Source: a virus. Taken from it: 29,444 bases of DNA. The stretch is from positions 1 to 29,444 of the IMG/VR virus record IMGVR_UViG_3300027631_000096; one strand, 5' to 3'. Below the pieces are notes generated by a model. That model was not told the DNA's origin. It worked only from the letters and a program-made list of their open reading frames with translations, and made no database searches. Below are positions 3,101 through 8,513 of the stretch, piece by piece (position 1 is the first letter of the stretch; every line of letters begins with the position of its first letter). Position numbers and translations under genes: made by a program.

Positions 3101-3266
3101 TTTTTTTTGTTTTTGGTTTCCATAATCCAATGGAGTTAACACTTCGATTCACTTGGTATAATGGGTCTGTATATATAAAATTTACAATCTCATTTAATCC
3201 TTTGTAATTATTTACAAGAACATAAGTTCCATTCCCATAATTATTTATTGTATATCCTTCTTTCAT
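3090..3266 (-). CDS. Small hypothetical early protein (58 aa)
   Basis: ATG 3266 makes an ATGA overlap with the stop of the gene before it, and the frame ends at TAG 3090, overlapping the exonuclease start by 11 bp. The product begins MKEGYTINNYGNGTYVLVNN and ends in a lysine-rich tail (KPKTKKNEQ). A beta-hairpin-like N-terminus is suggested. The family is not recognised. The tight packing argues that it is genuine, and its presence supports the shorter exonuclease start. Confidence 0.55.
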   Translation of the reverse strand: MKEGYTINNYGNGTYVLVNNYKGLNEIVNFIYTDPLYQVNRSVNSIGLWKPKTKKNEQ

Positions 3267-3370
3267 TTCTTAATTCTTTCGTAAGCGTTACACATTTGTT
3301 CGTTGTCGTGGTAGTGAATGGATTGTACTGTTTTTCTCATCCATTTGTCAAATCTTTTTATTTCTTTCAT
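3263..3370 (-). CDS. 35-aa early peptide
   Basis: ATG 3370 shares a base with the stop of the upstream gene (TAATG), and TGA 3263-3265 overlaps the next ATG (ATGA). The peptide is basic, aromatic and helical (begins MKEIKRFDKWMRKTVQ). No family is recognised. The support is the perfect operon junctions at both ends. Confidence 0.5.
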   Translation of the reverse strand: MKEIKRFDKWMRKTVQSIHYHDNEQMCNAYERIKK

Positions 3371-3558
3371 TATAAATATTGTGCTAATATTAATTGTTTA
3401 TCTAACTGCTGCTCATCTGATAACGAACCAAAGGTAATAAAATTTGCTTCAATTTTAGCTAATTCTTTTAAATGATTTGTAGCAATGTCCAATCTTCTTT
3501 GTTGGTGTTTCATTATTAACTCCAATGATTCTATTTGTTGTAGGATTACTTCTTCCAT
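3370..3558 (-). CDS. Small coiled-coil early protein (62 aa)
   Basis: Strongly heptad-like from residue 3 to 40 (VILQQIESLELIMKHQQRRL...). A short TFGSLSDEQQLDKQL motif follows, resembling TFGNISNDLEIEL in the gene before it, so the two may be distant paralogues. Function unknown; such proteins often oligomerise or act as adaptors. It begins on a TAATG junction with the first gene of the operon. Confidence 0.6.
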   Translation of the reverse strand: MEEVILQQIESLELIMKHQQRRLDIATNHLKELAKIEANFITFGSLSDEQQLDKQLILAQYL

Positions 3559-5640: not shown

Positions 5641-5683
5641 TTAAAGTTTGTCACAAATTTGCTTCCTTAACTTCGAGTACAAA
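5641..5683 (-). repeat. Repeated early leader, copy 2
   Basis: 42 of 43 bases match 3802-3844 (the only difference is T5651 versus C3812). It spans from the TTTG of the -7 box towards the first ATG. Confidence 0.85.
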
Positions 5684-5687
5684 CGTA
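5680..5687 (-). promoter_or_regulatory. -7 box TACGTTTG for second leftward operon
   Basis: A TAnnTTTG match on the minus strand at the same position relative to the leader as in copy 1. The -33 region reads TTCG rather than TTTG, 18 nt upstream, so this promoter may be weaker or helped by an activator. Confidence 0.65.
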
Positions 5688-5764
5688 CAATTGTTATTTG
5701 AATTACGAACTATGTTTATTAAAATATTAAGAAAAATTTAACATTTGGCTCGATTTTACTGGGA

Positions 5765-5848
5765 TTTCTAATTTCTAATTTCTAATTTCTAATTTCTAAT
5801 TTCTAATTTCTAATTTCTAATTTCTAATTTCTAATTTCTAATTTCTAA
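5765..5848. repeat. 12 perfect tandem copies of a heptamer
   Basis: Unit TTTCTAA, 12 units without a mismatch (84 bp), followed by a decayed partial unit. Non-coding. It may be iteron-like, an AT-rich unwinding element, or a slippage-prone microsatellite. Confidence 0.95.
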
Positions 5849-5949
5849 TTTTCAACTACCGACCATACCAAGTAGAGATCTAAAAGCCAGATCTGGGCAA
5901 AGCAAATTAGTAGGTAAAAAACAGTAGTAGGTATAACAAAGTAATGATT

Positions 5950-5980
5950 TTAATACCCTATTAAATTAGTAGACTAATAA
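5950..5980. repeat. 31-bp direct repeat, copy 1
   Basis: Matches 6056-6086 at 29 of 31 bases. It contains the inverted motif ATTAGT-AG-ACTAAT. The two copies bracket the dyad array. Confidence 0.9.
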
Positions 5981-5981
5981 A

Positions 5982-6030
5982 TAACAAATTGTTACAAATA
6001 TAACATTGTTACAAATATAACAAATTGTTA
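5982..6030. repeat. Array of three evenly spaced dyads (operator/iteron candidate)
   Basis: TAACAAATTGTTA at 5982-5994, TAACATTGTTA at 6001-6011, and TAACAAATTGTTA at 6018-6030. Their centres (5988, 6006, 6024) are exactly 18 bp apart. Each half-site is TAACA/TGTTA. Regular spacing suggests a dimeric protein binding side by side. Confidence 0.8.
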
Positions 6031-6055
6031 AAAAAATAAAATCAAGGATCTGGAA

Positions 6056-6086
6056 TTAATACCCTACTAAATTGGTAGACTAATAA
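6056..6086. repeat. 31-bp direct repeat, copy 2
   Basis: Second copy of 5950-5980, with two mismatches (T to C and A to G). Confidence 0.9.
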
Positions 6087-6371
6087 TTAGTCAATTTTGT
6101 AGGAAATTTGTAGAAAAACGATTTTAAGGTACATTTAAAGAATTGTTTTTTTCAAAATATACTCTACTATCAAAACTTCTATATATTGCCTTAATCGCAA
6201 AAACCATGTAAATACGGGGCTTCGCAGAGGTACGATTTTCCTACAAATTGCACATCTTCATGATTTTAACAAATTGATTGCAGAATTATCAATAAAAGAC
6301 CAGTTTTGTTGCATTATTATACCCATTTGTGTTAAAGTTTATAAAAGTAGTTTTTTAATCAAATAAATAAA

Positions 6372-6379
6372 TATCTTTG
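6372..6379 (+). promoter_or_regulatory. -7 box TATCTTTG for the amidoligase cassette
   Basis: A TAnnTTTG match immediately followed by the third, diverged copy of the early leader. No clear -33 TTTG is present. It should start transcription near 6385, giving a leader of about 45 nt before ATG 6429. Confidence 0.65.
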
Positions 6380-6412
6380 TATTCAAGTTAACGAAGCAAT
6401 TTTGCGGGAAAC
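6375..6412 (+). repeat. Repeated early leader, copy 3 (diverged, opposite strand)
   Basis: It aligns with copies 1 and 2 from TTTGTA through AAGTTAACGAAGCAA, then TTTGCGGGAAACTT, with one deletion and about six substitutions. The AAACTT-to-ATG distance (14 nt) equals that of copy 2. Confidence 0.7.
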
Positions 6413-6531: not shown

Positions 6532-7716
6532 ATGGAAACTCAAATTTTAAGAAACGCAATAAAATCTATAAACAAAGATTTTTGCACAAAACACCAATTC
6601 AGAAACGAAGACGTTTTCGAGCATAACGGACTATATTACAGTATAGATTATTACGTTATTTTGCATAACGGGGATATTGCAGAAGCCGAAGATGCAATTT
6701 TTTGCGAATATTACGAAGAGTATTTTTATTCCGAAGATGTGAGAGAAGTAGAAATTTATAAAAATACTCAATATTACTCAAATTTGGCAATTGATAGACT
6801 TTATCTAGTTTGTATAAATGGTAAATATTACGATGAAGAAGCACTAGAATACAATGGTTTTCACTACTTGCAAGATATTGAAGAATGGTCAGATAACGAT
6901 GCATATTGGCACGAAAGCGAAGATGCATATTTTAGTTATCCTGAAAGCGAAAGCAAAAATTATACACGTGGATACCATAACGGAAGTTATAAAGAAATGA
7001 TTTTCGATAATATTTCACTTTATAAAATCGGTTACGAAATAGAAAAAGAAGATAGGGACATTTTAGAGTCAATAAATATAGACGATTTTGAAAGCGAAAC
7101 AGACTATTTTTGGAGAAAAGAGGAGGACAGCAGTTTGAATAGTGGGTCAGGTTTTGAACTAATTAGTCCTACTTTTGAACTTGACACCGAAAAGATTTTC
7201 GACTTAATAAATAATAACGACACTTTAAAAGATCACATAAATGCTAGTTTTTCAACATCTTGTGGAGGGCATATAAATTTGTCAAAAAAAGACTGCAACG
7301 GTGAAGAAGTTTTTAATTTGGTTTGTGGTTATACTCCCCTCCTTTACTCCTTATATTACGGGAGAGTTGATAAAAATTACAGTAAAGGTAAAAGCAATAA
7401 AGACCTAAAAAACGACAACGAAAAATACCAAGCAATAAAAATCCATAATAATAGAATTGAATTTCGCATAATTTCGGCAGTCCCGAACGTGGAAACCCTA
7501 CTTTGGAGAACTAAATTAATTGAAAAAATGTTGGAACACCCAACGGCAGATGTAAGAACTGCATATTGGCACATTAAAACAAAGTTTAAAACACTTTTAA
7601 GCGAAGTTTATAATACCGATAAAATGCAGATTTTAAACGATAGAATAGTGAAAAATACCCTAAAATTTGAGGGCGTTGATTTAACAAAAACAAGAAAAAA
7701 CGATAATAAAAACTAG
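6532..7716 (+). CDS. Amidoligase-family enzyme (COOH-NH2 ligase, Amidoligase_2 type)
   Basis: 394 aa. The C-terminal 230 residues match the glutamine-synthetase-like amidoligase fold. IGYEIEKED (166-174) is the first strand with the metal/ATP acidic pair. EEDSSLNSGSGFELISP (197-213) is the DgSl...ElvSP motif. CGGHINLS (244-251) corresponds to the family's cGfHvH. IHNNRIEFRII (304-314) and LLWRTKLIEKM (323-333) are the EfR...W segment. Such enzymes join a carboxylate to an amine using ATP; the substrate is not known here. The N-terminal 150 residues are acidic, tyrosine-rich repeats (IFCEYYEEYFYSEDV, VCINGKYYDEEAL) that look like zinc-ribbon repeats with most cysteines lost. It sits 5 bp before the amidotransferase gene. 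Iyer, Aravind and colleagues described phage amidoligases with such partners. Confidence 0.82.
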   Translation: METQILRNAIKSINKDFCTKHQFRNEDVFEHNGLYYSIDYYVILHNGDIAEAEDAIFCEYYEEYFYSEDVREVEIYKNTQYYSNLAIDRLYLVCINGKYYDEEALEYNGFHYLQDIEEWSDNDAYWHESEDAYFSYPESESKNYTRGYHNGSYKEMIFDNISLYKIGYEIEKEDRDILESINIDDFESETDYFWRKEEDSSLNSGSGFELISPTFELDTEKIFDLINNNDTLKDHINASFSTSCGGHINLSKKDCNGEEVFNLVCGYTPLLYSLYYGRVDKNYSKGKSNKDLKNDNEKYQAIKIHNNRIEFRIISAVPNVETLLWRTKLIEKMLEHPTADVRTAYWHIKTKFKTLLSEVYNTDKMQILNDRIVKNTLKFEGVDLTKTRKNDNKN

Positions 7717-7721
7717 AAATT

Positions 7722-8513
7722 ATGTGCATAGCAATATTGAATACTAAAGGAAAATTGAGCAAAGAAACGATAAAAAACAGTTTTGACAACAACGAAATGG
7801 GTGCAGGGCTTTTATGGAACGCAAACGGAAAATTAAACACTTTTAAAACCTACAAATTTAACGCATTACTTCAGAAGTACAACGAATTGAGAAACAATAC
7901 AAAAACGGGTAAAATCGTTTTGCATTTTAGAATTGCTACAAGTGGCATAAATGGCAAGGAAAATTTGCACCCTTTTAATGTAAATGATAATTTAGGATTC
8001 GTACATAACGGGGTTATATCGGGACTCGGAAACGTAAAGCACTCGGATACATACCAATTTAACGAGATACTAAAAGACTTCAAACACGATTTTATTAACT
8101 GCAAAACCTCAAATTTATTTATTGCTAACTATATTGGCAGTGGCTCAAAATTGGTATTTTTAGACAATAACGGAAACCACACACTTATAAACGAGTCAAA
8201 AGGTCATTGGGATAAATCAAAACAAAATTGGTTTTCAAACGATAGTTATAAAGCCTACAATGATTATAAATGGTACGGAAGTACGAAAATATACAACACC
8301 GTTAAAAAGTATAATTATAAAATCGATACATTTTCAGAGGAAGAAAGTTATTGGGATACATTTTCGGAATGTTGCAGTTATTATAATATTGACGAAATGA
8401 ATATCAATTCAGATATGGAAATAGAATACTATTGCGAGTTAAATAATTGTGCGGATGTATACGAACTATTGCAACATTTGAAATTAAATAAATCCCTACA
8501 TTATGCAAAATAA
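7722..8513 (+). CDS. Class II (Ntn-type) glutamine amidotransferase
   Basis: 263 aa. It begins MCIAILNTKG, so removal of Met exposes Cys2 as the catalytic nucleophile. Other class II signatures are EMGAGLLW (25-32), HFRIATSG (68-75), NLHPF (81-85), the oxyanion-hole motif FVHNGVI (93-99) and SDTYQF (108-113). The expected activity is hydrolysis of glutamine to release ammonia, probably handed to the amidoligase next door, or a related amide hydrolysis. The last 100 residues (tyrosine- and asparagine-rich) are not part of the known core. The gene follows the amidoligase by 5 bp and overlaps a membrane micropeptide at its 3' end. Confidence 0.85.
   Translation: MCIAILNTKGKLSKETIKNSFDNNEMGAGLLWNANGKLNTFKTYKFNALLQKYNELRNNTKTGKIVLHFRIATSGINGKENLHPFNVNDNLGFVHNGVISGLGNVKHSDTYQFNEILKDFKHDFINCKTSNLFIANYIGSGSKLVFLDNNGNHTLINESKGHWDKSKQNWFSNDSYKAYNDYKWYGSTKIYNTVKKYNYKIDTFSEEESYWDTFSECCSYYNIDEMNINSDMEIEYYCELNNCADVYELLQHLKLNKSLHYAK

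Follow-up and report, generated by a model that had tools for sequence, protein, structure and literature searches.

The packing of several TAACA and TGTTA half-sites into a phage intergenic region raises the question of which protein reads them and what their occupation would mean for the phage and its host. The window, by which we mean the whole stretch of DNA that was analysed, is a linear phage contig of 29,444 bases from IMG/VR, and its array lies in the divergent region separating the leftward genes, among them a YqaJ-type exonuclease gene, from the rightward genes for terminase and structural proteins. The full gene plan is revealed by two near-complete relatives, G008 (104-bp end repeat) and G010 (overlapping ends), in which the structural genes run rightward and primase-helicase, helicase and resolvase make up the leftward replication genes. 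A DNA-level similarity search against GenBank phages gave weak, unrelated matches only. An earlier note on this DNA had proposed cooperative binding of a dimer to evenly spaced dyads and had named an origin iteron set, a partition site or an operator for the divergent promoters as candidate functions, with a helix-turn-helix (HTH) protein encoded at 2121-2453 as one possible ligand.

Two further observations concern the gene plan. Between array and terminase (6532-8513), the window and some relatives hold a gene for a 394-aa protein and a glutamine-amidotransferase-like gene, at the place of which G008 and G011 carry an unrelated gene (phrog_1617). In G013 (G013:C1:11376-13613), G014 and G015 the open frame of the terminase large subunit has 746-751 aa and is interrupted at about residue 38 by a long insert that keeps the frame, possibly an intein; in G013 an HNH-like match lies within it.

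Results

The array in the window and in related phages

Three TAACA-N-TGTTA dyads occupy positions 5982-5994, 6001-6011 and 6018-6030, with centres at 5988, 6006 and 6024 as the earlier note had it, and they are the only ones in 29.4 kb (mean of 0.33 in shuffled sequences, none of 100 shuffles reaching three). Their 18-bp spacing is true of the window but incidental, because 13- and 11-bp dyads, with spacers of 3, 1 and 3 bp, happen to alternate; relatives show spacings of 17, 19 or 30 bp. The even period is thus not conserved, an outcome that the earlier note would have counted against its proposal, but the half-site grammar (N6, N3/N1) is kept and equals that of the host operator described below. 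Across relatives the conserved core is a 16-bp unit, TGTTACAAATATAACA, with spacers of 3 bp, giving a period of 19 bp, or of 1 bp, giving one of 17 bp. The features of the region are collected in Table 1.

Table 1. Features of the array region, with positions counted from the first base of the window
Feature	Position	Strand	Basis or remark
TACGTTTG, candidate -7 box of a leftward early promoter (TAnnTTTG type)	5680..5687	-	sequence; general consensus
ATTTCTA minisatellite, 12.6 copies	5764..5851	+	position taken by different minisatellites in relatives
31-bp direct repeat, left copy, with second dyad (CTATTAAATTAGTAG)	5950..5980	+	motif not enriched in host genomes
Probable operator cluster, six TAACA/TGTTA half-sites, spacers N3-N6-N1-N6-N3	5982..6030	.	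sequence and host PWM scan
TAACAATGTTATATTTGTAACAATTTGTTA, near-copy of the 218-aa ACT-protein gene operator	5982..6011	-	28/30 identical; 24-bp core 5982-6005 scores 33.6
16-bp conserved unit TGTTACAAATATAACA, copy 1	5990..6005	.	sequence comparison
TATATTTG preceded at 18 bp by TTG, possibly a leftward promoter inside the array	5995..6002	-	sequence
16-bp conserved unit TGTTACAAATATAACA, copy 2	6007..6022	.	sequence comparison
TGTTACAAATATAACAAATTGTTA, second full operator match	6007..6030	+	score 28.3, host PWM scan
31-bp direct repeat, right copy (CTACTAAATTGGTAG)	6056..6086	+	sequence
TATCTTTG, candidate -7 box of a rightward promoter	6372..6379	+	sequence; homologous TATATTTG in relatives

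The array is retained in about 12 relatives, and the number of full dyads ranges from one (G008, G010, G013) through two (the window, L044) and three (G003, L118) to seven (G002) and nine (L119). L293, a far relative whose structural proteins are 30-46% identical, likewise has three dyads, with TGTTATAAATATAACA. The array is absent from G001 and G011 though the region is covered by sequence. Additional array-like matches in IMG/VR (L288-L301) mostly belong to contigs of high GC content, whose dyad is another one: L288-L290, L292, L294, L295, L297, L298, L300 and L301 are viral contigs with a GC fraction of about 0.64 that carry tandem TGTTAGACGTTTAACA dyads in the same N6 layout, their sequence being unlike the window array and the phages unrelated.

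Repeats around the array

The 29/31 match between the two copies of the direct repeat was verified, and the inner inverted motif ascribed to each copy proved to be an imperfect 15-bp palindrome (CTAYTAAATTRGTAG); the right copy also leads into a perfect palindrome, GACTAATAATTAGTC, at 6078-6092. As a frame for the array the repeat is real in the window but not a fixed arrangement, since this second dyad has 0, 1 or 2 copies in relatives, where both copies sometimes lie on one side of the array. The second dyad family, CTACTAANTTAGTAG, which is the direct repeat of the earlier note, also occurs in L119, L118, G003 and G002, with 0-2 copies per phage. We rejected CTACTAANTTAGTAG as another host operator, for it was met in 6 of 101 genomes, roughly as often as chance would yield, and at unrelated places.

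Directly left of the array lie minisatellites whose unit is wholly different between close relatives (ATTTCTA, GGGTTGCCTCGTT, GGTGGGTTTAGTTCCGTTTGGTC or 30-35-mers); outside the window they were located at 1400-1490 in G002, 5' of 30953 in G010 and at 40240-40560 in G011. This zone is a repeat-turnover hotspot at one fixed place, and short-read assembly next to it could conceal or alter copies. To the right, an inverted repeat formed by TTTGTAGGAAA (6096-6112) and TTTCCTACAAA (6231-6247), 118 bp apart, is mostly retained in L004 and possibly represents a long-range stem or paired sites.

The same motif at host promoters

When TGTTACAAATATAACA-N1-3-TGTTA was sought as an exact string in 84,980 bacterial and archaeal species, each represented by a single genome, 29 matches were returned, 25 of which stand in front of lysA (11), asd (7) or the gene of a 218-aa protein that adjoins yraN (7). 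The other four lie elsewhere, one near a TetR-type gene and one near a NuoE-like gene. Because a motif-based search is biased, the three genes were also fetched by protein from a Flavobacterium sample and their upstream regions read irrespective of the motif. In these genomes, an operator of the form TGTTW-N6-WAACA-N3-TGTTW lies near -97 at lysA, -107 at asd and -105 at the 218-aa gene. The 218-aa gene is absent from 17 sampled genomes, and the operator follows its presence: it was found at lysA in 34 of 36 genomes with the gene versus 0 of 13 without (Fisher 4e-10), and at asd in 27 of 33 versus 1 of 17 (Fisher 2e-7), independence being overstated in both tests as the genomes are related. Searched genome-wide, the strict pattern typically gives three exact sites, namely the promoters of lysA, asd and the 218-aa gene itself. 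Most simply, these data would make the 218-aa protein the presumed regulator of a three-promoter regulon.

The C-terminal half of this protein matches almost solely the ACT subunits of aspartokinases in fold (Foldseek on a low-confidence model, pLDDT 55), and weak aspartate-kinase profile matches are consistent with the fold result, which we take as supporting evidence only. We presume tandem ACT domains of aspartokinase type, whose ligand would be lysine or threonine, and the N-terminal third is predicted to be helical, compatible with a DNA-binding domain (an HTH as judged from predicted helices only). No account of the regulon of this ACT protein was found in the open-access literature searched. 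We hereby define, on sequence grounds, a candidate lysine-pathway regulator and its regulon in Flavobacterium.

The phage array matches the host operator

The array obeys the half-site grammar TGTTW-N6-WAACA-N3-TGTTW, with two full matches that are also the top scores of the window. Using a scoring matrix built from 92 host operator sites, the minus-strand site scores 33.6, versus 32.9 for the best host site and a maximum of 23.9 in 300 random windows; two other sites in the window score above 20, and both are inside the array. The minus-strand stretch 6011-5982 differs at only two of 30 positions from the operator that precedes the 218-aa gene of G053 and G058, the N1 and N3 spacers included. 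No relatives of the ACT protein were present in 50,697 phage records, and the phage contigs gave one non-significant match (E 0.25).

Among 399 Flavobacterium assemblies screened for relatives of the phage, one was positive, the relatives being on contigs 34 and 45 kb long, which lends no support to lysogeny by integration into Flavobacterium genomes. In Flavobacterium assembly G150, contigs of related phages (portal 74%) occur alongside the ACT-protein gene and host operators at all three genes. These contigs are kin of the window phage, not that phage itself, and the phage clade and the regulator hence meet in the same cell type.

Promoters near the array

Promoters of Bacteroidetes consist of -33 and -7 elements, the -7 box being of the TAnnTTTG type. 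The minus strand of the array has TTG-N18-TATATTTG in the window and similar elements in relatives, an arrangement that resembles this consensus; L293 is without the TTTG, and the embedded elements are partly a consequence of the operator sequence. The distance from the array to the consensus rightward promoter is about 200-400 bp and that to the leftward promoters about 175-800 bp, a wide variation that weakens simple contact models for the main promoters. As read from the sequence of the host promoters, the operator overlaps the -33 region of the 218-aa gene and lies upstream of -33 at lysA and asd, and phages L120 and L122 have an extra dyad that overlaps a different -33 element, also leftward. 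Between the array and the rightward -7 box (3215-3400 in G008, 6130-6380 in the window) there are two occurrences of a motif resembling AAAGYATTRTTTTAATCAAAA, possibly an activator site for the rightward promoter.

Discussion

We propose, with a probability of about 0.72, that the array is an operator cluster for a transcription regulator of the host, most likely the 218-aa ACT protein of Flavobacterium. This proposal is based on motif identity, on the shared spacing grammar, on the co-occurrence of the operators with the regulator gene and on the want of a linked phage protein. The operator function listed in the earlier note accordingly gains support from the host-operator match, but the ligand and the logic that it had put forward do not. 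Weighing against our reading are the array-less relatives G001 and G011 and the 4 of 29 motif matches that lie elsewhere. We infer binding of DNA by the ACT protein, the sign of the regulation and its effect on phage or host.

A divergent regulatory region would also suit operators read by one of the phage's own regulators, for instance the 2121-2453 protein, with a host-like specificity acquired by chance or descent, and small HTH proteins are indeed present in these phages. However, the presence of the array does not follow the type of HTH protein. L122 with the window-type HTH protein and G008 with an unrelated one at the same place carry the same array, and we discarded the 2121-2453 protein as ligand since G001 and G011 have the G008-type protein yet no array; moreover, the phages examined lack an ACT-protein homologue. 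A regulator of phage origin thus appears improbable. The case for a replication origin, in which the phage primase-helicase or another initiator would bind the repeats as iterons, draws on the repeated AT-rich units of 17-19 bp in a divergent region and on a strand-skew switch nearby. Yet the primase-helicase is 92-99% identical between array-less G001/G011 and array-bearing G008/L122 and merely 62-65% identical in array-bearing G003/L118, so that having a similar primase does not predict having the array, and the motif also stands at host biosynthetic promoters. The cumulative AT-skew minimum found at the array in several relatives is a matter of local composition, because T-rich minisatellites lie to the left and the array is A-rich. 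On account of the primase mismatch and of this explanation of the skew, the iteron origin was abandoned as the main reading, and we consider it very improbable. Taken together, the failure of both HTH protein and primase to track the array argues against a phage repressor and initiator iterons alike. As for a partition site, no ParA/ParB-type protein was found among the subset of phage proteins scanned.

Another host regulator, for example a Rex-type repressor, might read TGTTA-N6-TAACA dyads, and one Bacteroidales match does lie upstream of a NuoE-like gene, together with a second such dyad; similar dyads may be read by other regulators too. On the other hand, the operator of lysA, asd and the 218-aa gene is set apart by its N3-spaced third half-site and by its co-occurrence with the gene for the ACT protein, and we hold it very unlikely that the phage sites serve such a protein.

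If the ACT protein is indeed the ligand, it is tempting to envisage that during infection the host regulator would occupy the half-sites side by side, its dimers lining the array, and would cover the minus-strand -33/-7 elements within it. Leftward early transcription would thereby be tied to the lysine and aspartate-family status of the host, and multiplying phage DNA would draw the regulator off host promoters. Gating of leftward phage transcription is our first choice for the main effect, although we hold it at somewhat less than even odds.

The array could instead mainly titrate the regulator, shifting expression of lysA and asd and with it the supply of lysine and diaminopimelate, while phage promoters are not directly affected. 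The sites are near-ideal, up to nine dyads (L119) would face three sites in the host, both dyad number and distance to the phage promoters are variable, and the engineered ArgR decoy offers a precedent (PMC7826281). Against this, some phages have only one full dyad with adjacent half-sites, and the location in a divergent regulatory region suits promoter control as well, though it may simply be the largest free intergenic space. That the expandable tandem array is a natural transcription-factor sponge, rewiring host biosynthesis through a so far undescribed ACT-domain lysine/aspartate regulator, is a tentative and rather unlikely view; we found no description of a natural phage sponge in the open-access literature searched. 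Gating is ranked above titration, and both can hold.

Whichever effect prevails, the sequence evidence suggests that the virus probably recruits or soaks up the regulator of a host lysine operator. A phage regulatory region is in this way linked to a specific metabolic circuit of the host from sequence alone, with the likely protein named; should gating apply, the phage would sense the amino-acid status of its host via the host's own regulator. No report of a phage array of biosynthetic-pathway operators was found in the open-access literature, and four known systems invite comparison. Like the iteron origins of plasmids and satellite P4, the array is built of AT-rich units that are repeated in tandem every 17-19 bp, close to replication genes; unlike them, it does not co-vary with an initiator candidate and shares its motif with host promoters. 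CtrA-binding sites in phages of Alphaproteobacteria have been associated with lytic deferment (PMC9437464), and the same article also refers to phages under LexA control and to the Spo0A sites of phage phi29. In common with these, the array would provide binding sites for a regulator encoded by the host and not by the phage, and the sites persist across phage lineages. Theirs, however, belong to promoter regions, and the regulators concerned govern the cell cycle, the SOS response or sporulation, whereas the presumed ligand here is the regulator of a biosynthetic pathway, and the sites are amplified in tandem and lie apart from the main consensus promoters. The cer site of ColE1 contains ArgR boxes, at which a host amino-acid repressor acts as an architectural DNA-binding protein in XerCD recombination with PepA. 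It resembles the array as a mobile element's sites for a host amino-acid regulator (presumably so in our case) and differs in that no XerCD/PepA-type recombination system was identified for the phage array. An engineered ArgR decoy plasmid raised the arginine output of E. coli 16-fold (PMC7826281) and, like the phage array with its presumed ligand, puts near-consensus operators for an amino-acid regulator, in many copies, on an element that replicates. ArgR decoys are synthetic and experimentally proven, whereas the phage array is natural and its decoy role putative; if it does act as a decoy, the array would be the natural counterpart of an engineered metabolic tool.
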